DNA of 64,000 bases from Kocuria soli (GTDB lineage Bacteria > Actinomycetota > Actinomycetes > Actinomycetales > Micrococcaceae): assembly GCF_003797835.1 (NCBI RefSeq), contig NZ_RKMF01000006.1:124001-188000 (forward strand), read 5' to 3'. A program made the position numbers and the translations under genes. Shown here piece after piece: positions 35,333 through 47,764 of the stretch. Each line of letters begins with the position of its first letter. The stretch's first letter is position 1. The notes under the pieces are model-generated. The model was given only the letters and a program-made list of their open reading frames with translations. It searched no databases and had not been told where the DNA came from.

Positions 35333-35362
35333 GGTCGTCGTCGTGAATCGTTGTGCGTCCGG
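35333..35362. repeat. 30-bp direct repeat, right copy, in the ychF promoter region
   Basis: The partner of 34660-34689 (27/30 identical). It lies 23 bp upstream of the ychF start codon and just upstream of the ychF -10 box, so it may carry original ychF promoter sequence. Confidence 0.8.
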
Positions 35363-35371
35363 GGTGGCCGG

Positions 35372-35377
35372 TAGACT
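35372..35377 (+). promoter_or_regulatory. -10 box of a leaderless ychF promoter
   Basis: TAGACT ends 8 nt before the GTG at 35386. No ribosome site is present. Confidence 0.5.
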
Positions 35378-35385
35378 CGCGTTCC

Positions 35386-36483
35386 GTGGCTTTAACTATC
35401 GGAATCGTGGGGCTGCCGAACGTCGGCAAGTCGACCCTCTTCAACGCACTGACCCGTAACACCGTGCTCGCGGCGAACTACCCGTTCGCCACCATCGAGC
35501 CGAACGTGGGTGTGGTGAACCTGCCCGACGAACGGCTGGGCCAGCTGGCCTCCGTGTTCGGCTCGGAGCGGGAGGTACCGGCCACGGTGTCCTTCGTTGA
35601 CATCGCGGGCATCGTGAAGGGCGCGTCCGAGGGCGAGGGGTTGGGGAACCAGTTCCTGGCCAACATTCGCGAGGCCGACGCGATTGCCCAGGTGGTACGG
35701 GCGTTCGAGGACCCGGATGTGGTCCATGTGGACGGGAAGATCGATCCCGCCTCCGACATCGAGACCATCAACACCGAGCTGATCCTGGCGGACATGCAGA
35801 CGCTGGAGAACGCCATCCCGCGCCTGGAGAAGCAGGTCAAGATCAAGAAGGCCGACCCGGCCAAGCTCTCGGCTTACCAGGCTGCCCTGGAGGTGCTGGG
35901 GGAGGGGCACACGGTGTTCTCCCGCGCTTCCGACCTGGACATGGAGCAGCTGCGGGACCTGACCCTGCTGTCCGCCAAGCCGTTCATTTTCGTTTTCAAC
36001 GCCGACGACGGCGTGCTGGGTTCGCCCGAGCGCCAGGCCGAGTTGGCGGCATTGGTCGCCCCGGCTGAGTGCGTGTTCTTGGACGCCAAGCTGGAGTCCG
36101 AGCTGGTGGAGCTCTCCGAGGAGGAGGCCCGCGAGATGCTGGAGATGTCCGGCCAGGAGGAATCCGGCCTGGACAAGCTGGCAAGGGTGGGCTTCTCAAC
36201 CCTTGGCCTGCAGACCTACCTGACGGCCGGTCCCAAGGAATCCCGTGCCTGGACCGTGCGCAAGGGTGCAACGGCGCCGCAGGCCGCCGGAGTAATCCAC
36301 ACGGACTTCGAGCGGGGCTTCATCAAGGCCGAAGTGGTGTCCTTCGACGACCTGCTTGCTGCCGGTTCCATGGCCGACGCCAAAGCTGCGGGCAAGGTCA
36401 GGATGGAGGGCAAGGACTACGTCATGCAGGACGGGGACGTGGTGGAGTTCCGGCACGGACAAACGTCTGGAAGCAAGAAGTGA
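35386..36483 (+). CDS. ychF: redox-regulated ATPase YchF with altered C-terminus
   Basis: A 365-residue Obg-family P-loop protein: G1 GLPNVGKST (residues 9-17), switch region DIAGIVKGASEGEGLGNQFLANIREADAI, a non-canonical G4 (FVFNADD) typical of YchF's ATP preference, and a C-terminal TGS domain (GVIHTDFERGFIKAEVV ... GKVRMEGKDYVMQDGDVVEFR). YchF binds ribosomes and affects stress responses. The family normally ends FRFNV; here FR is followed by HGQTSGSKK, supplied by the inserted island. The GTG start matches the family N-terminus. Confidence 0.95.
   Translation: MALTIGIVGLPNVGKSTLFNALTRNTVLAANYPFATIEPNVGVVNLPDERLGQLASVFGSEREVPATVSFVDIAGIVKGASEGEGLGNQFLANIREADAIAQVVRAFEDPDVVHVDGKIDPASDIETINTELILADMQTLENAIPRLEKQVKIKKADPAKLSAYQAALEVLGEGHTVFSRASDLDMEQLRDLTLLSAKPFIFVFNADDGVLGSPERQAELAALVAPAECVFLDAKLESELVELSEEEAREMLEMSGQEESGLDKLARVGFSTLGLQTYLTAGPKESRAWTVRKGATAPQAAGVIHTDFERGFIKAEVVSFDDLLAAGSMADAKAAGKVRMEGKDYVMQDGDVVEFRHGQTSGSKK
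36421..36483 (+). repeat. ychF 3'-end copy A (left attachment junction)
   Basis: The genuine end of ychF. Sequence to the left of GAGTTCCG (36445-36452) is native (encodes MQDGDVVEFR). To the right it changes from the expected FNV-stop to HGQTSGSKK-stop. It shares GAGTTCCG with C and D (B has GAGTTTCG), and its right side resembles that of copy B. Interpreted as attL of an element inserted in ychF. Confidence 0.75.
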
Positions 36484-37286
36484 GCTCTCAAACCCTTCCC
36501 GGGGATGGTCAGCTCGAGTCCGCAAGAGAGGACTGGTCAACGGCGGAGTGGGACGCTCATGTCCTTGCTGGTGGAGGCGTAGCCGCGGGTCGTGCGCGAT
36601 ATGACCGTAATGGTGGCTTGAACAGCTACAAGAATCCAAATAATGACGTCATAAAGCTCGCCTTGTTCAAACTCTCGAAAGGAAGGTGCTGGTGGCAAGG
36701 GGGAGAGTGTCGGTCGAGGGCTGTGCCTCCTCGTGAGGCCCAAATTGATCACCTCGTACCGAAGACCGCTAATGGGGCGCAACTTCGGGCTGCTCTCCAG
36801 TTGGGGACACAGCAGAAGACTTTCTTCGACGTTCATGATCCAGCCAATCTCGCCTATATCTGTGGTCCGTGCAATCTTGCCAAGAGCGACACTTTCCCGG
36901 AGACTGCCGCTGAGTTGGATGAAGTCCGGCGTGGCAATTCACGGCGGAAAGACGTCATCGAACTCGTCAATAAGTGGTACGAGAATGTTGTTCTCGATGA
37001 GTCAGGACTGAGCCTGAAGAGCATGGACATCTCAGACGAAGACGTGAGAGAGATCTATGCGGACCTGATCGCCGAGATGATCGAAAATCTTGCAGCAGCC
37101 TCTGGTTCGAGTGACACACTGACGAATTTTGGTGATGTGACTGTCACGTCTGAATCGTGGGAGTTCTACGTGCGTCCTTCAGATGATGTCATTGAGGCTG
37201 AAATTGAATCACGCGCCGAGATGGCGGCCGACGATCGCCGAGCAGAGTTGCGCGATGAGGAGATGCAAGATGACACTGCGCCCTGA
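36480..37286 (+). CDS. HNH endonuclease, first gene of the island
   Basis: A 268-residue protein, visibly AT-richer than its neighbours. The central HNH/zinc core is GRCWWQGGECRSR, then AQIDHLVPK (catalytic DH), DPANLAYICGPCNLAKSD (Asn and the second Cys pair). The C-terminal 100 residues are acidic, helical and unassigned. The GTG at 36480 lies within the ychF stop (GTGA), so it would be translated by coupling to ychF. HNH proteins here are likely DNases used in defence or mobility; the target is unknown. It sits between two copies of the ychF end (A and B). Confidence 0.8.
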   Translation: MSSQTLPGDGQLESAREDWSTAEWDAHVLAGGGVAAGRARYDRNGGLNSYKNPNNDVIKLALFKLSKGRCWWQGGECRSRAVPPREAQIDHLVPKTANGAQLRAALQLGTQQKTFFDVHDPANLAYICGPCNLAKSDTFPETAAELDEVRRGNSRRKDVIELVNKWYENVVLDESGLSLKSMDISDEDVREIYADLIAEMIENLAAASGSSDTLTNFGDVTVTSESWEFYVRPSDDVIEAEIESRAEMAADDRRAELRDEEMQDDTAP

Positions 37287-37438: not shown

Positions 37439-40400
37439 GTGGTCGAGGACGATCCAGAGCAGGAGGGGACAGAATCGCGCAGCGTCACGCTCCGATCGCT
37501 TGGCCCCGAGTACGACAAGGACCATCACGGTACCTACCTTCGGCACCTCGAAGAGGCGGTCCTCGAGAAGAGGAACCGCAATATCGCCCTCACGGGCCGT
37601 TACGGGGCCGGCAAGTCCAGCGTCCTCGACGCTTTCGAGAAGAAGCACCCGGAGTCGACTGTCCGGATCAGTATCAATACGCTCGGTCCTGACGAGCACG
37701 ACGAGGATCTGACAAACCGGATCCAGAAGGAACTGGTCAAGCAGCTCGTCTATCGGCTCGAGCCCGGCAAGGTCCGTCGCTCGAGGTTCGCCCGTCCAAA
37801 GCCGTTGACGAAGCTCAGGGCGTTCTTCCAGGCGTTCGGGGCGAGCGCGGTCGGTTTGGGTATCCTATGGCTGCTCGGCGTACGCCCGATGGCGGGCTGG
37901 CCTGGCGAGGGCGCGAACACCGCGGTTCACCTTGCACTGGCGGCGCTGTTCTTCGCTCTTGTCCTGATCGCAGCGTGGGCGATCCGCTGGATCGTTGGGG
38001 ACCGGATAGTCTCCGAGGTCACAACGGCGGGCACGAAGATCGCGCTCGGCGAGGGCCCGACCACCTACTTCGACAGCTTCCTCGATGAGATCGTCGCGTT
38101 CTTTGACGCGGTGAAGCCGGAGTTCGTGATCTTCGAGGACCTTGACAGGTTCGACGACCCGCAGATCTTCGACTCACTTCGCGAGCTCAACACCCTCGTC
38201 AACGCATCCGTGGGCTGGCGGGATCAGGCGCAGCCGCTGCGCTTCATCTATGCAATCAAGGACAGCCTGTTCGAACAACTCGGCGCGGAAGCGGACACAA
38301 CGCCTGACGGTACGAAACCACGACTCGACGTCGCCACCGCGGCGGTGCAGCGGGCCAATAGGACCAAGTTCTTCGAGATGGTCATCCCGATCGTCCCGTT
38401 CATCTCGCACCGCAACGCGCGCGACCACCTCGTCGGGGCGCTGGTATCACTCGGTTTCGAGAGTGACCTCGTGTCGCGCCCCCTTCTCGACCTGATCGCG
38501 CGGCACACAACCGACATGCGTCTGATGATCAACATCTGCAACGAGTTTGCGGTGTTCGCCGAGCACCTGCTGTGGACCGAGAACCCCGCGCCCGGTATGA
38601 CGGCCGATCACCTCTTCGCCCTCGTCGCGTACAAGAATTTCCACCTCGCCGATTTCGAGGCTATCTCGCAGCGTTCAAGCACGCTTGACGAACTCGAGCG
38701 ACATCACCGCGACGAGGTCAGAGCCCTCATCGCGGGACTGCAGGCGCAGCGGCGCAAGCGGCAACGTACCGAGGAGCAGCGCGACAGCCGAGAACGGACC
38801 GCGGCAGAACTGGGTGCTCGACTGCGCGACGTTAAGGACATGTTCCCGCCTGCGAACGGGTGGCCCTACCAATCGGTGACGGTGGGTGGACAGAGCTTCG
38901 CCTTCAATGCGGTCGGCACCATCGAGTTCTGGGAACTGGTCGCCAAGGAGAAGTCCTTTGCCGTGACCCAGCGGCACAACTCGAGCCCTTTGGTGCTCGA
39001 CCAGGAGCGTATCAGCAGGGTCTTCCCGGAGATCACCAACGCCGCGGAGTGGCTTCCCCCCGATCCTGCCGAGCTCGCGAGGTTGACCCATCAGTATGAC
39101 AGCGACATCTCGACATTACGCGGAGCCGATTTCGACGGGTTGGCCCGCTACGAGCGCGTGCCGAACGGGCACATTCGGTTCGACCAGCGGATAGAGGATG
39201 TGCTCGAGTCGGAGCTGGCGCGCGATCTCGTTCGGCGGGGTTTCATCACGCGCAACTACGCGGAGTACTCGGCGATTTTCTACGGCAGTTTCGTTGGCGT
39301 CGACGTCGCGTTCTTCTACAACCACGCGGTCCAACCGAACGAGATGTACCTCGACTACGAGTTCACCTCCGAGAATGCGATGAGCAATCTCCTCGAACAG
39401 GTCCCGGCCGACTTCACGAGCAGTGTGAGCGCCCTGAACATCCAGGTGATGGCCTACCTGCTCGAGGAGCGGCCCGACGATGCAAAGCGGCTCGTGACGT
39501 ACGTGGTCACGCACGACGATGATGACGCCCGGACCTTCCTAGACGCCTTCCTCAACGCTCCGGACGCCCCGAGGGACAGGCTCGTGAGGCAGTTGGCCCA
39601 GCACCCGTGGCGCGAGGTTCTTGAGTACCTTGCAAGTCATCAGGGGATCCCCGACGCGAAGACGCGGCTCGAACTTTTCGATGCTGCGTTGCTGAGCGCT
39701 CAGCACGTCGACTCGTACGAGATCGGGGAGTCCGTCCGTTCGTTGATCACGACCTCATACCCGCTCCTGGCCGCTGTGAGCGAGGACCTGCCCGCTGAGC
39801 AGACCGAGCGGGTCTTCGAGGTCCTCCAGTCAGTGGGAGTCGTCGTCGACGATCTCAGCAGTCTGAGCGCTCTACTGCGGGATCGTGTGGTGGATGCCCA
39901 GATGTACGAGATCAACGTGCGGAACCTGCGTCTGGCGCTTGGGATCGATACCGAGCCAGTTCTCGACGCGGTGCGCGCGGAGGACAGCGTGTGGAAGTTC
40001 TGCAGGGTCCAAATTGCGGACTACGTCTCCGCCATGGATGCGGACCTGCCGGACCAGCCGATCATCCTGACCGAGACCGCGCTGGTTGGGCTCATTGGTG
40101 AGCAGCATGAGGTGTGGACGGAGGAGCAACTGGTCGATGTGATCTGGCGTAGTGCCTCGTCCGCTGCGATCGTGGATGTCGAGGACATCCCGCAGGCGAC
40201 CTGGCGTGCCGTCGTCGACGCGGGCCTCATGGTCCCGACGGTGGGGAATGTGTTCGCCTACTTCGAGGCCCATGGGATCGACGAGGTGCTGTCGCGCATG
40301 CTCAACGGCAACGGGGCCGATCCGATCGAGCTCACTGCTAGCGAGGAGGTCACGGACGAGGATCGGAACGCGCTTGCCGTCGGTCTGCTGAACGCTTCGG

Positions 40401-41074
40401 CGTACCTGACGGCGCGTGCTCGGGTCCAGCTCGTCGAGCAGTTGGAGCTTGAGTCCGAGATCGAGTTGACGGCCGTGACGTCGAGCCCTGACCAGCTTCT
40501 CGCCCGTGCGCTGGAAGCGAAGCTGTTCCCGGACTCCGCCGAGACCTTCGCGCATTTCGCGACGGGTGGGTGGGCGTCCGTCTCCGAGGCGTTCGCAGTG
40601 TCCGAGCGGGTCGAGGGATTCATGACGCCCGCGCTCGTGGAGGGCTTCGTCGGCGAGTTCCTCGAGAGTCGGCAGACCCCGGCTGCGCTGCAGCGGATGG
40701 TCCTGGGGCACCTCGATGAGTACGTGCCTGGTGACGACCGGCGCGCACTCCGCGCTGCTGGTCGGTTTGCGCTCGACAACCAGATCTGGCTCCCCTTCGA
40801 CGAGGTCCGCCGAATTGCCCGCGTGACACGAGATCCGGAGGTGGTCCTGCGCCAGCTGACGCACGCGAAGGACATCTCCGCGGGCGACCTCTCGGATGTC
40901 CTCGTGTCCCTCGGTCAGCCGTACGACAAGCTGTCGGCGGGGCCAGACGTTGAGTTCGACCTCCCGGTGGGCTCATCGAACGAGACACTGTTCAAGCGCC
41001 TTGAGTCCGCGGGGCGGATCGCGATCATCAAGAAGGTCATCGGGCGCGGCAGGAAGATCCGGACCCTTGTGTGA
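37439..41074 (+). CDS. YobI-like membrane-inserted P-loop NTPase
   Basis: A 1211-residue protein. SLGPEYDKDHHGTYLRHLEEAVLEKRNRNIALTGRYGAGKSS holds Walker A (residues 53-60). Walker B/sensor is FVIFEDLDRFDD (229-240). Two membrane helices (about 132-148 and 162-185) are inserted between them, as in KAP-type NTPases. The remaining 900 residues are helical and unassigned, likely a sensor or scaffold. The domain resembles the YobI-like P-loop NTPase family as I recall it. KAP/STAND-type NTPases often act in anti-phage defence; that role is inferred from the type I RM neighbour. The GTG follows GAAGGGG. Confidence 0.78.
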   Translation: MVEDDPEQEGTESRSVTLRSLGPEYDKDHHGTYLRHLEEAVLEKRNRNIALTGRYGAGKSSVLDAFEKKHPESTVRISINTLGPDEHDEDLTNRIQKELVKQLVYRLEPGKVRRSRFARPKPLTKLRAFFQAFGASAVGLGILWLLGVRPMAGWPGEGANTAVHLALAALFFALVLIAAWAIRWIVGDRIVSEVTTAGTKIALGEGPTTYFDSFLDEIVAFFDAVKPEFVIFEDLDRFDDPQIFDSLRELNTLVNASVGWRDQAQPLRFIYAIKDSLFEQLGAEADTTPDGTKPRLDVATAAVQRANRTKFFEMVIPIVPFISHRNARDHLVGALVSLGFESDLVSRPLLDLIARHTTDMRLMINICNEFAVFAEHLLWTENPAPGMTADHLFALVAYKNFHLADFEAISQRSSTLDELERHHRDEVRALIAGLQAQRRKRQRTEEQRDSRERTAAELGARLRDVKDMFPPANGWPYQSVTVGGQSFAFNAVGTIEFWELVAKEKSFAVTQRHNSSPLVLDQERISRVFPEITNAAEWLPPDPAELARLTHQYDSDISTLRGADFDGLARYERVPNGHIRFDQRIEDVLESELARDLVRRGFITRNYAEYSAIFYGSFVGVDVAFFYNHAVQPNEMYLDYEFTSENAMSNLLEQVPADFTSSVSALNIQVMAYLLEERPDDAKRLVTYVVTHDDDDARTFLDAFLNAPDAPRDRLVRQLAQHPWREVLEYLASHQGIPDAKTRLELFDAALLSAQHVDSYEIGESVRSLITTSYPLLAAVSEDLPAEQTERVFEVLQSVGVVVDDLSSLSALLRDRVVDAQMYEINVRNLRLALGIDTEPVLDAVRAEDSVWKFCRVQIADYVSAMDADLPDQPIILTETALVGLIGEQHEVWTEEQLVDVIWRSASSAAIVDVEDIPQATWRAVVDAGLMVPTVGNVFAYFEAHGIDEVLSRMLNGNGADPIELTASEEVTDEDRNALAVGLLNASAYLTARARVQLVEQLELESEIELTAVTSSPDQLLARALEAKLFPDSAETFAHFATGGWASVSEAFAVSERVEGFMTPALVEGFVGEFLESRQTPAALQRMVLGHLDEYVPGDDRRALRAAGRFALDNQIWLPFDEVRRIARVTRDPEVVLRQLTHAKDISAGDLSDVLVSLGQPYDKLSAGPDVEFDLPVGSSNETLFKRLESAGRIAIIKKVIGRGRKIRTLV

Positions 41075-41203
41075 GTGCTCGTCGTGCGCTGGGAGGAACA
41101 GATCCGAACCCCGTACGAGCAGCTGACACCGGAAGAACAGGCGAGTGACCGGGAACAGGTCCGCCGCTACCTGCCGACGGTCATCGACGTCTTGAGCTCC
41201 TGA
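41075..41203 (+). CDS. 42-residue ORF, RyR-domain-like
   Basis: A GTG directly follows the NTPase stop (TGA then GTG), implying coupling. The product contains RWEEQIRTPYEQLTPEEQ and SDREQVRRYLP, resembling the W...P...L.ee...DReq...iP pattern of RyR-like domains in phage and conflict-linked proteins. It may be a small partner of the NTPase, or the tail of a decayed larger gene. Evidence is pattern-level only. Confidence 0.45.
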   Translation: MLVVRWEEQIRTPYEQLTPEEQASDREQVRRYLPTVIDVLSS

Positions 41204-41266
41204 CCGCCGTCCGTGCGGGCCCCCGGAGCACATGCTCCCGGGGCGCTGCCGCGGCTGCATCTTCTG

Positions 41267-41340
41267 TTCATCTTTCGGCCATACGCTACATATCTGATAC
41301 GTCGTCATGTAAAGTTACTGATACAAGACGACAGCGATCA
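41267..41340 (+). promoter_or_regulatory. AT-rich promoter region of the hsd operon
   Basis: A locally AT-rich stretch before hsdM with two CTGATAC direct repeats (41294-41300 and 41318-41324, 24 bp apart), plausible operator half-sites. No single -35/-10 pair stands out. Confidence 0.35.
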
Positions 41341-41353
41341 GAGACGAGCCAGC

Positions 41354-43300
41354 ATGACCGGACAGTCGACAGCCACGACCGCGACCACTGCGCGCATCGT
41401 ATGGGACACCGCGGACAAGTTCCTCCGCAACGTGGTCGAGCCGCAGGAGTACGGCGACTACATCCTCCCGTTCACCGTCCTGCGCCGCCTGGAGTGTCTG
41501 CTCGCAGAGACAAAGAGCGACGTGATCGCGTTCGTGCGTGATCTCGGCGAGATGCCGCCGCACCTGATCGACATCGCGGTCCGCGACCGGTTCAAGCTGA
41601 GCTTCTTCAACGTCTCGGAGCTTGATCTGGCGACGATCGCGTCGGTCGACGACAACGTGGACAAGTCGCTGACGAGCTACGTCGCAGGCTTCTCGAACAA
41701 CATCGCCGACATCTGGAACGCCTTCGAGTTCCCGACGCTCGTGACCAAGCTCGCCTCGGCGAACCGGCTGCACGCCGTCGTGAAGCACTTCTCGACCCTT
41801 CCGCTCGGACCCGACCAGGTCTCGAACACCGCGATGGGCGACATCTTCGAGGACGTCATGTACCGGGCCTTCGACAAGAAGGGCAAGGGCGCGGGTGCGT
41901 TCTACACCCCGCGCGACGCGATCAAGCTCATGGTCGACGTGCTGTTCGCCGCGGACGAGGACTCGCTCGTGGGGGAGAGCACGCTGCGCTCGATCTACGA
42001 CCCCACCGCGGGATCGGGCGGCATGCTGCTCGTAGGCCAGGACGCGCTCAAGGCGCTGAACCCCGACATCAGGGTGACACTCTTCGGCCAGGAGCTCATG
42101 CCGTCTGCGTATGCGCTCGGCAAGGCGGACCTGCTTATCCAGGGCGGCCGGCCCGATGCGATCCGCATGGGTGACACGCTCATCCACGATGAGTACGAGG
42201 GGCAGACCTTCGACTACGTGCTGTCGAACCCTCCGTTCGGCAGCGACTGGGGCGTACAGGAGAAGGAGGTCCGCGCGCAGGCGAAGGTCGATGGCTCGAG
42301 GTTCAGCCACGGCCTGCCGTCGAAGTCCGACGGGCAGATGCTCTTCCTCGCGCACTGCGCCTCGAAGCTCACCCCGGCCGGTAAGCATGGCCACGGCGGG
42401 CGCGCCGCGGTGGTCTCGAACGCCTCTCCGCTGTTCACCAGCGACAAGGGCCCGAACCAGATCAGGCAGTGGCTGTTCGACGAGGACCTCATCGACGCGA
42501 TCATCGCGCTGCCCACGCAAATGTTCTACGGCACCGGGATCGCGACGTACATCTGGATCCTCGACACCAACAAGGACACCAAGCGCCAGGGCAAGATCCA
42601 GCTCATCGACGGATCGGACCTCTGGGATCCGATGCGCAAGCCCATGGGTGACAAGCGTCGCTACGTCTCCGATGGCAAGCGCGAGGCGATCCTGCGCGCG
42701 TACCGCGACTTCGAGTACGCGGACGAGACGATCTCGAAGGTGCTGCGGCCTGCGGACTTCCAGTTCCTCGACGTGCCGGTGTACAAGCAGGCGCGGCTCG
42801 CCACTGTCGTGAGCGACGAGGCGATCGAGACGCTTCTCGAGCGCAAGGACTTCACCGAGGAGCACGCGGACGTGCTGCGCTCGCTCGACGGCTCGCCGTG
42901 GAACGGCCTCGCCACTGCCTGGCCGCAGCGTGCGAAGGTGTCGGGGCTGAAGGTGCCCGTGACGCAGATCGACGCCGTCATGAAGGCCGTCGGCGTCGAG
43001 GATGAGGGCGCACCCGTTGCGGTCGACCGCAAGGGGAACGCCGTCATCGCCGACGGGTGGAAGATCACCGAGCGCGTGCCCCTCAGTGAAGACCTCGACG
43101 AGCACATGAAGCGGGAGGTGCTTCCGTTCGCTCCCGACGCGCAGTGGGACGAGAGTGCGGCGAAGGCCGGCAACGAGGTCCCGTTCACGCGCCTGTTCTA
43201 CGTGCCGGAGGAGCCGCGCGACCTCGCCGAGATCGACGCCGACGTCAAGCGTGTCATGGGTGAGCTTGCCGCGATGTTCGAGGCGGTGAGTGGAAAGTGA
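41354..43300 (+). CDS. hsdM: type I restriction-modification DNA methyltransferase (M subunit)
   Basis: A 648-residue N6-adenine methyltransferase subunit. An N-terminal helical HsdM_N domain (IVWDTADKFLRNVVEPQEYGDYILPFTVLRRLE) is followed by the SAM motif DPTAGSGGMLL (motif I) and catalytic NPPFGSDW (motif IV). The C-terminus extends about 130 residues beyond common HsdM proteins. It methylates host sites with HsdS and forms the restriction complex with HsdR. The ATG at 41354 is chosen as the family-like start; an in-frame GTG at 41213 is rejected. It overlaps hsdS by 4 bp. Confidence 0.95.
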   Translation: MTGQSTATTATTARIVWDTADKFLRNVVEPQEYGDYILPFTVLRRLECLLAETKSDVIAFVRDLGEMPPHLIDIAVRDRFKLSFFNVSELDLATIASVDDNVDKSLTSYVAGFSNNIADIWNAFEFPTLVTKLASANRLHAVVKHFSTLPLGPDQVSNTAMGDIFEDVMYRAFDKKGKGAGAFYTPRDAIKLMVDVLFAADEDSLVGESTLRSIYDPTAGSGGMLLVGQDALKALNPDIRVTLFGQELMPSAYALGKADLLIQGGRPDAIRMGDTLIHDEYEGQTFDYVLSNPPFGSDWGVQEKEVRAQAKVDGSRFSHGLPSKSDGQMLFLAHCASKLTPAGKHGHGGRAAVVSNASPLFTSDKGPNQIRQWLFDEDLIDAIIALPTQMFYGTGIATYIWILDTNKDTKRQGKIQLIDGSDLWDPMRKPMGDKRRYVSDGKREAILRAYRDFEYADETISKVLRPADFQFLDVPVYKQARLATVVSDEAIETLLERKDFTEEHADVLRSLDGSPWNGLATAWPQRAKVSGLKVPVTQIDAVMKAVGVEDEGAPVAVDRKGNAVIADGWKITERVPLSEDLDEHMKREVLPFAPDAQWDESAAKAGNEVPFTRLFYVPEEPRDLAEIDADVKRVMGELAAMFEAVSGK

Positions 43301-44439
43301 CGAGCTACGCACCGTTCTGGTCCTTGGCGACGCTCATCTCTGATTCCGCAGATCCGGCGGACTTCCAGGTCTCCCTCGAGGACATGATCTCGGACTCGGG
43401 CCGGCTTGTCGATGATGAGCTCTCCCATTACGCCTCGAAAGGAACCCCCTTCATCGCCGGGGACGTGCTGTTCGGCAAGCTGCGGCCCTACCTCGCGAAG
43501 TACTGGCACGCAGATCGCTCAGGAACCGCGGGCGGCGATATCCATGTGTATCGCCCCACCGCTGGCATCGACTCCACATACCTCAGCTACGTCGTAGGCA
43601 GCCGCAACTTCGTCAAGTTCGCGGATGCGGCTTCCAAGGGTGTCAAGATGCCACGCGCTGAATGGATGGGACTTCGCGAGCTGAGCGTCTATCGGCCCGA
43701 CCTTCGCACCCAGAAGCGCATCGCCGACTACCTCGACCGCGAGACGGGCGAGATCGACGCGATGTTGGCGAGGATGGACGAGCTCACGCAGACGTTGGAG
43801 GCGCGTCGGAGATCCGTGATTGATCGCGAGTTGATGCCGTATGTCGGTGTTTCGACGGCTCGTCTCGGTCTTGTGGCCGAGGCGATCACCGGCCTGACAT
43901 ATGCGCCGGCTGACGTAGTGGACTTAGGTGGGACCGTCGTGCATCGGTCTGGAAGCATCCAGAACTCACGGATCGACAGAAGTGATCTTGTCCGCGTTGC
44001 GACTTCGATCCCTGAAAGGCTTCGACTCCGCAACGGAGACCTGCTCGTGTGCAGTCGGAACGGAAGCGCACACCTGGTCGGTAAGAACGCACTTATCGGT
44101 GCTGGAGAAGTGGACGAGACCTGGGGAGCCTTCATGACGGTGCTCCGTTCACCCAACAACCGGTACGTGCGGTGGTACTTGCAGTCCACGTTATTTGCGG
44201 ATGAGCGCAGCCAGTACTCGACCTCGACGATCAATCAGCTCACGATTGGAATGATCAATCGGATGGAGATCCCGTTCCCGGACCCCACTGAACAGACTCG
44301 CATCGCCGATCACCTCGATGAGGTCACCGGAAAGATCGAGCAGCTGGTCGCGAAGACCGCGGAGCTGAAGAACCTCCTCATCGAGCGCCGAGCGGCGCTC
44401 ATCACCGACGTTGTCACCGGAAAGAAGCAGGTGCCCTGA
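43297..44439 (+). CDS. hsdS: type I restriction-modification specificity subunit
   Basis: A 380-residue HsdS with two target-recognition domains and two conserved spacers. TRD1 is residues 1-140, then helix QKRIADYLDRETGEIDAM. TRD2 is residues about 185-335, then QTRIADHLDEVTGKIEQL. The paired helices set the gap in a bipartite recognition site. The TRD2 segment is less GC-rich than the rest, consistent with domain exchange. The start overlaps the hsdM stop (ATGA). Confidence 0.94.
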   Translation: MTSYAPFWSLATLISDSADPADFQVSLEDMISDSGRLVDDELSHYASKGTPFIAGDVLFGKLRPYLAKYWHADRSGTAGGDIHVYRPTAGIDSTYLSYVVGSRNFVKFADAASKGVKMPRAEWMGLRELSVYRPDLRTQKRIADYLDRETGEIDAMLARMDELTQTLEARRRSVIDRELMPYVGVSTARLGLVAEAITGLTYAPADVVDLGGTVVHRSGSIQNSRIDRSDLVRVATSIPERLRLRNGDLLVCSRNGSAHLVGKNALIGAGEVDETWGAFMTVLRSPNNRYVRWYLQSTLFADERSQYSTSTINQLTIGMINRMEIPFPDPTEQTRIADHLDEVTGKIEQLVAKTAELKNLLIERRAALITDVVTGKKQVP

Positions 44440-47400
44440 TGAGCGATGCTCAGCTGATGGAGCTCGAGTTCGAGCAGAACCTCTGCGAGGAGCTTGCCGA
44501 GCGCGGCTGGCTCTACGAGGCGGGCGGTAGCCCGCAGGCCGCTGGCTGGGACGTGACACTGGCCATGGTTTCCCGAGATGTGCTCGCCTGGCTCGAGGCG
44601 CAGTACCCGGACGAGTACGAGAAGGCCGTGCCGGCCGATCTCGTCAACGGCCAGCGAGACGCTGCCGAGAAGAAGCTCCTGGTCCACATCACCAAGGAGC
44701 TGGCGAAGCAGACGAAGATGGACCCGATCACCGGGCACCCGGTCGGGGGGCTCCTCGGCGTGCTCCGCAAGGGTTTCTCGTACGCGCAGGTCGGTCGGCC
44801 CGCGGCGAAGTTCGGCCCTCTGATGGCGTTCCCGCCGGCGAACCCGAATCTCACTGAGGTCGTCGAGCAGGCGGACGCGGTCCGGCTGCGGATCCTGCGA
44901 CAGGTCCGCTTCGACATCACGACGAACGAGACGATCGACGTCGTGCTCACCGCGAACGGCCTGCCGATTGTGACGATGGAGCTGAAGACTGACAACACCC
45001 AGAGCGTCCAGCACGCGATCCGGCAGTACCAGCAGGATCGCGTGCCCGGCAAGAACCGTGCGCTGCTCGCGCCGGGCCGGGCGCTGGTTCACTTCGCCGT
45101 CTCGAACGACCTGGTGTTCATGGCGACGAAGCTCGCCGGGGCCGACACCGTGTTCCTGCCGTTCAACCAGGGCGACGACGGACACGAGGGCAACCCGCCC
45201 TCGAAGACCGGCTCGGCGACGAACTACCTGTGGCGCGAGATCCTCGACCGTCCGACGTTCATGCGCATCCTCAAGGACTACGCCCTCTTCGAGCCCGGCA
45301 AGTCGGGTAAGAAGGACGGCCGCCTGGTCTTCCCGCGCTTCCACCAGCTGCGCGCTGTCGAGCGCGTCGTCGCTGACATCGAGAAGAACGGGCCGGGAGC
45401 CAAGTATCTCATCTGGCACTCTGCGGGCTCGGGCAAGACGAAGACGATCGCGTGGCTGAGCCACCGCCTCATCCGGCACATGGACGCGCAGAGCCGGTCG
45501 ACGTTCGACTCGGTCATCGTCGTCACCGATCGCACGGTGCTGGACGAGAACATCCGCGATGACATGAGCCTCGTCCAGTCCTCCAAGGGCCTGGTGGTCT
45601 CGGTCGGGGAGAAGTCCGGGGCGAAGTCGCCGCAGCTGAAGAAGGCGCTCCTCGAGGGTGACCACGTCATCACCTGCACGCTGCAGACCTTCCCCGAGGT
45701 CATGAAGCTCATCGAGAACACGGATGCTCTGCGTGGCCGCCGCTGGGCGGTCATCGCCGACGAGGCCCACTCCTCGCAGACCGGAGCGAGCGCCCGCAAG
45801 CTCAAGGAGCTGCTCGCCGACACCGTGGGCGTCGACTTCGACGAGGACGACATCGACGCCGAGCTGTCGGCCGAGGATCTGCTGCGCGCGAAGAACAGCG
45901 CCGTAGCGAACGCCGCGAACATCACCTTCGTCGCCCTGACTGCGACCCCGAAGGCGAAGACGCTGCGCCTTTTCGGCACCCGCGACGAGGAGACCGACCG
46001 CTGGGAGGCCTTCGACACCTACACGATGGCTCAGGCGATCGAGGAGGGCTTCATCCTCGACGTGCTGCAGAACTACTCCACCTACGACATGTTCCTGCGT
46101 GTGAAGAACGCTCTCGGTGAGACCGAGGAGATGCAGGTCAACACCGGCGAGGCTGTGACGAACATCGTCAAGTACGCCCGGCTCCACCCGACCTCGGTCG
46201 CGCAGAAGGTGCGCGTGGTCGTCGAGCACTTCCGCCGCAACGTCATGCACCTGCTCGGCGGCGAGGCGCGCGCCATGGTCGTCACCGGCACGCGCATGGA
46301 GGCCTACACCTGGTGGCAGAAGATGAACGAGTACATCGCCGAGTCCGGGTACACCGACATGGAGACCCTCGTCGCGTTCTCCGGCTCGCTTCCCGGTCCG
46401 ACGGGCGAGCAGGTCACCGAGGTGTCGCTGAACGGCCTCAGCGATGTCGCCAGCGCCTTCCGCGAGGAGGGCGTCTACAAGGTGCTGATCGTCGCGAACA
46501 AGTTCCAGACCGGGTTCGACGAGCCGCGCCTGATGGCGATGTATGTCGACAAGGTCCTCACCGGGATCACGACCGTGCAGACGCTCTCGCGGTTGAACCG
46601 GATGTATCCAGGCAAGACTGCGCCGATGGTCGTGGACTTCATGAACTCCCCGGCGCAGATCCAGGAGGACTTCAAGCTCTACTACGAGGACGCGCACGTC
46701 AGCGGTGAGATCGACCCGAATGCGCTCTACACGCTTGCCGAGCGCCTGGACACCGCGGGCCATTACGACGAAAGCGGACTCGAAGCCGTGGTCCGGGCCT
46801 ACCTCGACGGCCTCGGTGGTGAGAAGATCTCACGCGCCATCACGCCCATCGTCCAGAGCTGGCAGGGTGCGTGGAATCAGGCGGTGCTCGCCAAGGACAA
46901 GGAGGCCCGTGAGCGTCTCGAGGCGTTCCGCTCGGACGTGATCAGCTATCGCAACGCCTGGCAGTTCCTCAGCCAGATCGTCGACTACGACGACGCGTTC
47001 CTGGCCGAACGTGCCGTGCTCACCACGCTGCTCGCGCGTCGGCTCCACACCGACGGCGTCACGGTCGACTTCAGCTACCTCGACGGCGTCCAGCTCTCCG
47101 GCGTGAGCCTGCGTCCCTCGGCGATCGAGGAGGACCACTCTCTGAGCGAGGGAAGTGACCAGGGGATCAAGCTCCCCGCGTTCGACAGCGAGCCCGGCGG
47201 CGGCAAGGCCGCACCGAAGCGCGGGCCGCTGGAAGAGGCGATCGACGCCGTCAACGCACTCTTCTCTGCCAAGGGCATCGATGTCAGCGGCGACAGCGTC
47301 GCCGGATTCATCACGACGTTCTGGGGCTACCTCGACGGCGACGACGAGGCTGTGGCGATGGCGAGGAACAACACCGCGGCGCAGCTGAAGTCCTCCGAGG

Positions 47401-47567
47401 ACTTCTCCAACGCCGTGGGCCTGGCGATGTACAGGGCCGTGCGCGAGTCCCAGGAGATCCAGGCGTACATGGCTGACCCGGCGTTCCTCAATGAGATCGC
47501 CGACATCGCGGCAGATGCGCTGCGCGCTCAGCACACGCGGAACGAGCAGGCCGGAGTCGGCGCATGA
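44439..47567 (+). CDS. hsdR: type I restriction endonuclease R subunit
   Basis: A 1042-residue HsdR. The N-terminal nuclease is about residues 20-260 with the DxxL...ExK core (IDVVLTANGLPIVTMELKTDN). An SF2 translocase follows: Walker A HSAGSGKTKT (near 327), DEAH (near 441), ALTATPK, and helicase C-terminal motifs including NKFQTGFDEPRLMAMYVDK and QTLSRLNR. A helical C-terminal domain contacts HsdM/HsdS. It cuts unmodified DNA after ATP-driven translocation. Its ATG overlaps the hsdS stop by one base (TGATG). Confidence 0.96.
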   Translation: MSDAQLMELEFEQNLCEELAERGWLYEAGGSPQAAGWDVTLAMVSRDVLAWLEAQYPDEYEKAVPADLVNGQRDAAEKKLLVHITKELAKQTKMDPITGHPVGGLLGVLRKGFSYAQVGRPAAKFGPLMAFPPANPNLTEVVEQADAVRLRILRQVRFDITTNETIDVVLTANGLPIVTMELKTDNTQSVQHAIRQYQQDRVPGKNRALLAPGRALVHFAVSNDLVFMATKLAGADTVFLPFNQGDDGHEGNPPSKTGSATNYLWREILDRPTFMRILKDYALFEPGKSGKKDGRLVFPRFHQLRAVERVVADIEKNGPGAKYLIWHSAGSGKTKTIAWLSHRLIRHMDAQSRSTFDSVIVVTDRTVLDENIRDDMSLVQSSKGLVVSVGEKSGAKSPQLKKALLEGDHVITCTLQTFPEVMKLIENTDALRGRRWAVIADEAHSSQTGASARKLKELLADTVGVDFDEDDIDAELSAEDLLRAKNSAVANAANITFVALTATPKAKTLRLFGTRDEETDRWEAFDTYTMAQAIEEGFILDVLQNYSTYDMFLRVKNALGETEEMQVNTGEAVTNIVKYARLHPTSVAQKVRVVVEHFRRNVMHLLGGEARAMVVTGTRMEAYTWWQKMNEYIAESGYTDMETLVAFSGSLPGPTGEQVTEVSLNGLSDVASAFREEGVYKVLIVANKFQTGFDEPRLMAMYVDKVLTGITTVQTLSRLNRMYPGKTAPMVVDFMNSPAQIQEDFKLYYEDAHVSGEIDPNALYTLAERLDTAGHYDESGLEAVVRAYLDGLGGEKISRAITPIVQSWQGAWNQAVLAKDKEARERLEAFRSDVISYRNAWQFLSQIVDYDDAFLAERAVLTTLLARRLHTDGVTVDFSYLDGVQLSGVSLRPSAIEEDHSLSEGSDQGIKLPAFDSEPGGGKAAPKRGPLEEAIDAVNALFSAKGIDVSGDSVAGFITTFWGYLDGDDEAVAMARNNTAAQLKSSEDFSNAVGLAMYRAVRESQEIQAYMADPAFLNEIADIAADALRAQHTRNEQAGVGA

Positions 47568-47764
47568 ACGCGGTCGGCCTGGGCGCGGTGATTCGCGACG
47601 CGCGGAAGAAGCAGGGGCTCTCTCAGGACGAGCTCGCCGAGAAGGCGGGTCTGTCCCGGCCGACCGTCGCCCGCGTCGAGCGCGGCGACGACGTGTCGAC
47701 GGCGACCATCACCAAGCTCGCCGAGGTGCTCGGCCTGGCACTCAAGCTCGAGGAGCGCGGTTGA
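47564..47764 (+). CDS. XRE-family HTH protein, last gene of the hsd operon
   Basis: A 66-residue lone helix-turn-helix: RDARKKQGLSQDELAEKAGLSRPTVARVERGDDVSTATITKLAEVLGL. The ATG overlaps the hsdR stop (ATGA). A controller role for the RM operon is likely, perhaps at the CTGATAC repeats upstream of hsdM. The sequence has no toxin partner, so a HipB-like role is less likely. Confidence 0.85.
   Translation: MNAVGLGAVIRDARKKQGLSQDELAEKAGLSRPTVARVERGDDVSTATITKLAEVLGLALKLEERG

Follow-up and report, generated by a model that had tools for sequence, protein, structure and literature searches.

What is a reading frame of 42 codons that abuts the stop codon of an NTPase gene and lies in front of a type I restriction-modification (RM) operon? 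The frame lies at 41075-41203 on the forward strand of a 64,000-nucleotide stretch of DNA from Kocuria soli (the window), where it opens with GTG at 41075 and closes with TGA at 41201-41203. Two features that the initial annotation had described are borne out: the TGA of the NTPase gene (41072-41074) is followed immediately by the GTG, and the short product contains the W/P/L/E/DREQVRRYLP pattern. A point absent from that annotation is that the ORF and the NTPase gene share one reading frame. We conclude that the ORF is very probably a truncated relic of a gene of ~93 codons that encoded a ryanodine-receptor-like (RyR) domain, stood last in a TIR-caspase-RyR operon and was followed by a type I RM operon. 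The features of the locus are the following:

35353-36483, forward strand: GTPase gene, named ychF here; match in 27 of 27 genomes of the genus
36069-37286, forward strand: ORF with an HNH-nuclease-like gene (36483-37286), between ychF and the NTPase gene
37439-41074, forward strand: YobI-type P-loop NTPase (PF20693, E 4.7e-100; partial PADLOC Tmn match, E 4.8e-44); first cassette
41072-41077, no strand: junction; NTPase stop at 41072-41074, similarity to an intact RyR gene from 41077
41075-41203, forward strand: very probably the 3' stump of a RyR-domain gene that held the third place in a TIR-caspase operon, approximately the last 41-42 of ~93 residues
41307-41325, forward strand: ATGTAAAGTTACTGATACA box before hsdM; matching pattern before hsdM of genome G695
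41354-43300, forward strand: hsdM of the second cassette, a type I methyltransferase that shares 72% identity with the hsdM after the intact TIR-caspase-RyR operon of G695
43297-44439, forward strand: hsdS, specificity subunit; 34% identical in G695
44439-47567, forward strand: hsdR, restriction subunit; 74% identical in G695
47564-47764, forward strand: HTH regulator, which closes the RM cassette; 62% identity to its G695 counterpart

The ORF is coding-derived sequence and no chance match, because the profile of its full-length relatives scores 55.4 bits on it and 5.2 bits on the runner-up among the frames of at least 25 aa in the window, and because tblastn with the 42 residues recovered 25 plasmid records at E ≤ 1 (best E 7e-9; top identity 66.7% over 33 residues) and one phage record (E 1e-6). 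Used alone, the 42 residues found only an E of 0.16 as best match in Pfam (and no PF02026 match at E ≤ 1), nothing in NCBIfam and PADLOC, no PHROG better than E 0.22, and at most weak matches (best E 0.13) in 58 related genomes besides their own. With the RyR profile, the genome of the window and one other (G192) were the sole matches among 394 genomes of the class, and a second match within the window genome was not found. Promoter and terminator scans of 40700-41500 returned none. Between the ORF and hsdM a GC-rich inverted repeat (41217-41243) was spotted by eye, at which the terminator scan reports nothing.

The plasmid and phage relatives are proteins of ~90 aa, and apart from its first residue the ORF aligns throughout with their C-terminal half. 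The RyR-like character that had been claimed for the product stands, with a reservation: four intact relatives from TIR-caspase operons match PF02026 with E values of 3e-4 to 0.2, but at 12-21 bits all of them stay under the curated cut-off of 27.4. The best E among the viral relatives is 2e-4, and 14 of the 17 members of the alignment match at E ≤ 0.1. The HxxW and D-R motifs of the intact relatives can be aligned, if weakly (E 0.014), to those of a RyR chimera of solved structure. A full-length viral relative (L051), modelled from a 17-row alignment with pLDDT 95, is predicted to form three helices (residues 2-26, 39-50 and 58-75), the first of which contains the HxxW motif in the form HERW. 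Foldseek with this model returned ryanodine-receptor entries in 25 of 25 rows, at weak scores (best E 0.27, TM-scores about 0.5), and the best Z in the structural comparison was 6.1; these results agree with a RyR fold in kind but score weakly.

HERW occurs in all six aligned intact relatives and is absent from the ORF, which, by the L051 model, would begin within the second helix. With the last helices retained but the first helix and HERW gone, the product should be unable to adopt a RyR-type fold or to hold a nucleotide; it would present the SDR side of the ligand site only, and it is probably inert. Of the 16 columns in this stretch that do not vary among six intact copies, the stump does keep 15, with V in place of I in the remaining one, and its pN/pS against seven intact actinobacterial copies (0.36-0.62) gives no sign of decay when set beside the values among the intact copies themselves (0.21-0.74; 39 codons). 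Since the values are within the range of intact copies, either the cut is recent or the stump is still constrained, 39 codons being too few to tell; this counts to some degree against a relic, in that it fits retained function as well as a recent cut.

Of the 25 plasmid loci recovered by tblastn, 17 were inspected, and in 13 of these a profile scan placed TIR and caspase genes immediately before the RyR gene, which is third. Here the initial annotation, which had tied RyR-like domains to conflict systems, is supported. The four exceptions are: i) L080, where the caspase gene lies behind the RyR gene; ii) L071, where by annotation a different TIR gene stands in front and the caspase is found farther upstream on the same record; iii) L077 (Sphingobium), where the RyR gene follows an IS and the tail of a caspase alone; and iv) L082, which has a partial RyR match only. 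The phage record and the genome G192, which was found via the RyR profile, have TIR-caspase-RyR too, as have the genomes G695 and G443; the latter two were both found by a caspase search and for that reason are no independent evidence of the linkage, which weakens the case for a relic to that extent. The adjoining genes around the intact relatives are a TIR gene of the ThsB_TIR type and a caspase gene of the Peptidase_C14 type, and the RyR gene occupies the third place in L014-L019, L020, L072-L076, L078, L079, L081, L105 and L106. In two of these the gene table is incomplete: the RyR frame is open in L075 (2297-2635) and L081 (2839-3126), yet no gene is listed there. In L073, L074, L075 and L076 a metallophosphoesterase gene lies directly 3' of the RyR gene and is a possible fourth component of the operon.

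A RyR match was present in 20 of the 52 plasmid records with a caspase (nine of the 52 being 39% partial caspases) and was lacking at E ≤ 1e-3 in the other 32; the third gene therefore seems optional in TIR-caspase operons. One of the records without a RyR match (L111) was opened and holds TIR and caspase, without RyR. Two of the five genomes of the order with a caspase match, G048 and G687, have distant caspases, and neither TIR nor RyR was matched in the flanks of these (~1.5 kb). Conversely, a full-length RyR query found 26 plasmid records: the 20 with a caspase, five with a partial match to the gene, and the record of L077. Comparable RyR fragments thus exist elsewhere, namely on four Rhodococcus plasmids and one Arthrobacter plasmid (the five partial matches) and in Sphingobium. 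In the window genome, the TIR profile gave no match at E ≤ 1, though it does find the TIR genes of the plasmid loci, and the caspase query gave none at E ≤ 10, though within the order it has matches in 5 of 396 genomes.

The key counterpart of the locus is found in G695, a genome of the same taxonomic order as the window, with the gene order TIR-caspase-RyR-hsdM-hsdS-hsdR-HTH-NTPase, where the window has ychF-HNH-NTPase-(RyR half)-hsdM-hsdS-hsdR-HTH. The DNA similarity to the RyR gene of G695 starts at 41077, three bases after the NTPase stop, with 78 of 111 bases identical, and in both genomes a box ATGTAANGTTNNTGATACA precedes hsdM; the ATGTAAAGTTACTGATACA box of the window is a candidate operator for the HTH gene of the operon itself. 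The neighbourhood of a RyR gene and this kind of hsdM is rare among the genomes examined, which speaks against the relic: among three other hsdM relatives from 297 genomes of the order only G695 has the RyR gene upstream, the two remaining close relatives (L107 and L108) give no RyR match in ~6.5 kb upstream, and of ten listed plasmid records with hsdM a single one (NZ_CP093327) carries RyR, as a piece that is far from hsdM.

The gene in front of the ORF belongs to another context. Five relatives of the NTPase were compared, four of full length (58-70% identical) and a fifth, L007, that is cut by the end of its contig. All four full-length relatives terminate at the identical ..LV-stop, and what follows is unrelated to the ORF. 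The idea that the ORF is the C-terminal part of the NTPase, severed by a nonsense mutation or reached via stop-codon readthrough, could appeal to its position in frame directly after the stop; the stop codon shared by the four relatives contradicts this C-terminal-extension or readthrough idea, and we regard it as having next to no probability. Genus and family searches added eleven more NTPase loci (ten places, L089 being the same as L109), and a RyR-profile scan of 15 other NTPase loci (14 places), ten of which reach just ~1.5 kb past the gene, gave a match in none.

These comparisons also bear on the proposal that the ORF is a small partner of the NTPase, normally overlooked by gene callers. 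In its strongest form it would be a functional protein that is translated by termination-reinitiation after the NTPase stop, with the half RyR domain regulating the NTPase or acting as its antitoxin. The abutting GTG in the same frame, the open frame itself, the retained conserved residues and the pN/pS values all agree with such a partner, and a junction that falls on the NTPase stop itself invites a story of coupling and is to that extent awkward for a relic. The 14 other places, however, lack a RyR match, the first helix with HxxW is missing, and the intact gene is part of a different operon, which makes a functional partner very improbable. As an accessory gene of YobI-type NTPases the ORF was rejected, as it is missing from four of four close relatives and the profile has no match at 15 of 15 loci. 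The initial annotation had itself proposed to look for the ORF behind homologous NTPase genes and had named its absence there, which is what was found, as the refuting outcome. The partner reading is unsupported; the ORF is very probably half of a gene that, where intact, is part of another system. What remains of the initial annotation is the RyR-like domain and its link to conflict systems, without the partnership with the NTPase. Likewise, the resemblance to PF20693 and PADLOC Tmn concerns the gene before the ORF, whereas the relatives of that gene that were examined are without the ORF.

The NTPase looks like a separate cassette on the 3' side of ychF, because in L007 (Actinomyces dentalis) and in L109 (genome G521, of the same family) it comes immediately after ychF. 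The NTPase of the window is 69% identical to each of these ychF-linked copies, versus 58% to the NTPase of the G695 island (L009, taken as being on the same contig), which argues against a locus formed simply by rearranging a single island like that of G695. The NTPase cassette seems to have settled repeatedly on the 3' side of ychF (the window from 36483 onward; L007; L109). Six congeners have sequence in common with the window as far as the 3' end of ychF or close to it (36452-36487), and in the pieces of these congeners that were compared, one of which extends just ~5 kb past ychF, the NTPase-RM stretch was not seen; two congeners (L083 and L086) share more pieces with the window beyond 49 kb. 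Unlike in L007 and L109, in the window ychF is separated from the NTPase gene by the HNH-like gene, the true start of which is probably after ychF. HNH and NTPase were considered as a conserved pair and rejected: in eight NTPase loci tested the sole match to the HNH query (in L007) fell in the part of the query that overlaps ychF.

A TIR-caspase operon is not the only conceivable source of the stump, and it could instead derive from a RyR gene of a phage or prophage, of the RyDEP-like counter-defence kind. RyR genes are present in 21 viral loci, none of which has a TIR or caspase match (some of the loci end near a contig end), and some viral copies score near the stump (L064 and L065, 20 of 36 residues identical). 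Against this, the seven top-scoring relatives are all TIR-linked copies (the best two being identical to the stump at 25 of 40 and 24 of 41 residues), and G695 carries exactly this gene upstream of a similar hsdM, for which reasons we give a phage origin little chance. Even less probable is an assembly chimera of two defence loci: the junction is abrupt, as judged from the assembly alone, but TIR, caspase and the N-terminal half of RyR are unmatched elsewhere in the assembly, which is rated 100% complete with 0.1% contamination.

A relic of the third gene of a TIR-caspase-RyR operon is thus the preferred reading, on account of the alignment with the C-terminal half, the 13 of 17 loci with TIR and caspase, the gene order in G695, the start of the similarity at 41077 and the absence of TIR and caspase matches from the genome. 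The ancestral arrangement would have been TIR-caspase-RyR-hsdM-hsdS-hsdR-HTH, which is still present in G695. A recombination or deletion, an event that we infer from the arrangements compared, would then have fused the stop codon of a YobI-type NTPase linked to ychF with a point midway through the RyR gene, and the cut would have taken away TIR, caspase and the N-terminal half of RyR. On this reading the frame of the ORF stays open because it is the final half of an old gene, and it is located at the NTPase stop because the junction fell there.

Two known systems are related to the intact operon. Type IV Thoeris consists of a TIR protein and a caspase-like protease that communicate by the signal N7-cADPR (Rousset et al. 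2025, as reported in PMC12847820 and PMC13373217), and in the operons around the intact relatives TIR likewise lies beside a caspase; the differences are that here a RyR third gene accompanies the caspase in 20 of 52 plasmid records and that the window genome is without TIR or caspase match. RyR-domain phage proteins cleave or soak up 2'cADPR and 3'cADPR, and the ligand residues of one of them, RyDEP, are H75, W78, H100 and D117 (both from a preprint, PMC13232231). The likeness to RyDEP and PF02026 consists of the weak profile matches, the HxxW and D-R motifs and the exclusively RyR-type Foldseek rows of the viral relative. Judged by spacing and not by comparison with the RyDEP sequence itself, H75 and W78 would correspond to HERW and D117 to the D of SDR, and H100 is apparently not kept. 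RyDEP is found in phage, whereas the bacterial copies are found in defence operons, the window holding the C-terminal half only. A RyR third gene in TIR-caspase operons was not found described in the literature, of which subscription journals were thinly covered and the main paper on type IV Thoeris may describe it; the portion of PMC7159879 that was available has no mention of RyR.

The stump itself is an ordinary genome scar, and the interest is in the three-gene operon behind it. By analogy with the phage proteins of PMC13232231, the intact RyR gene product is probably a binder, and perhaps also a cleaver, of the ADP-ribose-type signal that TIR makes, and would so buffer or reset the caspase. 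More specifically, and with somewhat less than even confidence, we suggest that the operon has in its intact third gene a regulator of its own that would bind or cleave N7-cADPR, thereby holding the suicidal caspase off below a threshold or resetting it, that the phage RyR proteins such as RyDEP would be counter-defence versions of it, and that the stump would be a fossil of the three-gene system. If this is true, the system would be a defence with its own signal control, and the host copy within the TIR operon would be a cellular relative of the phage RyR family.
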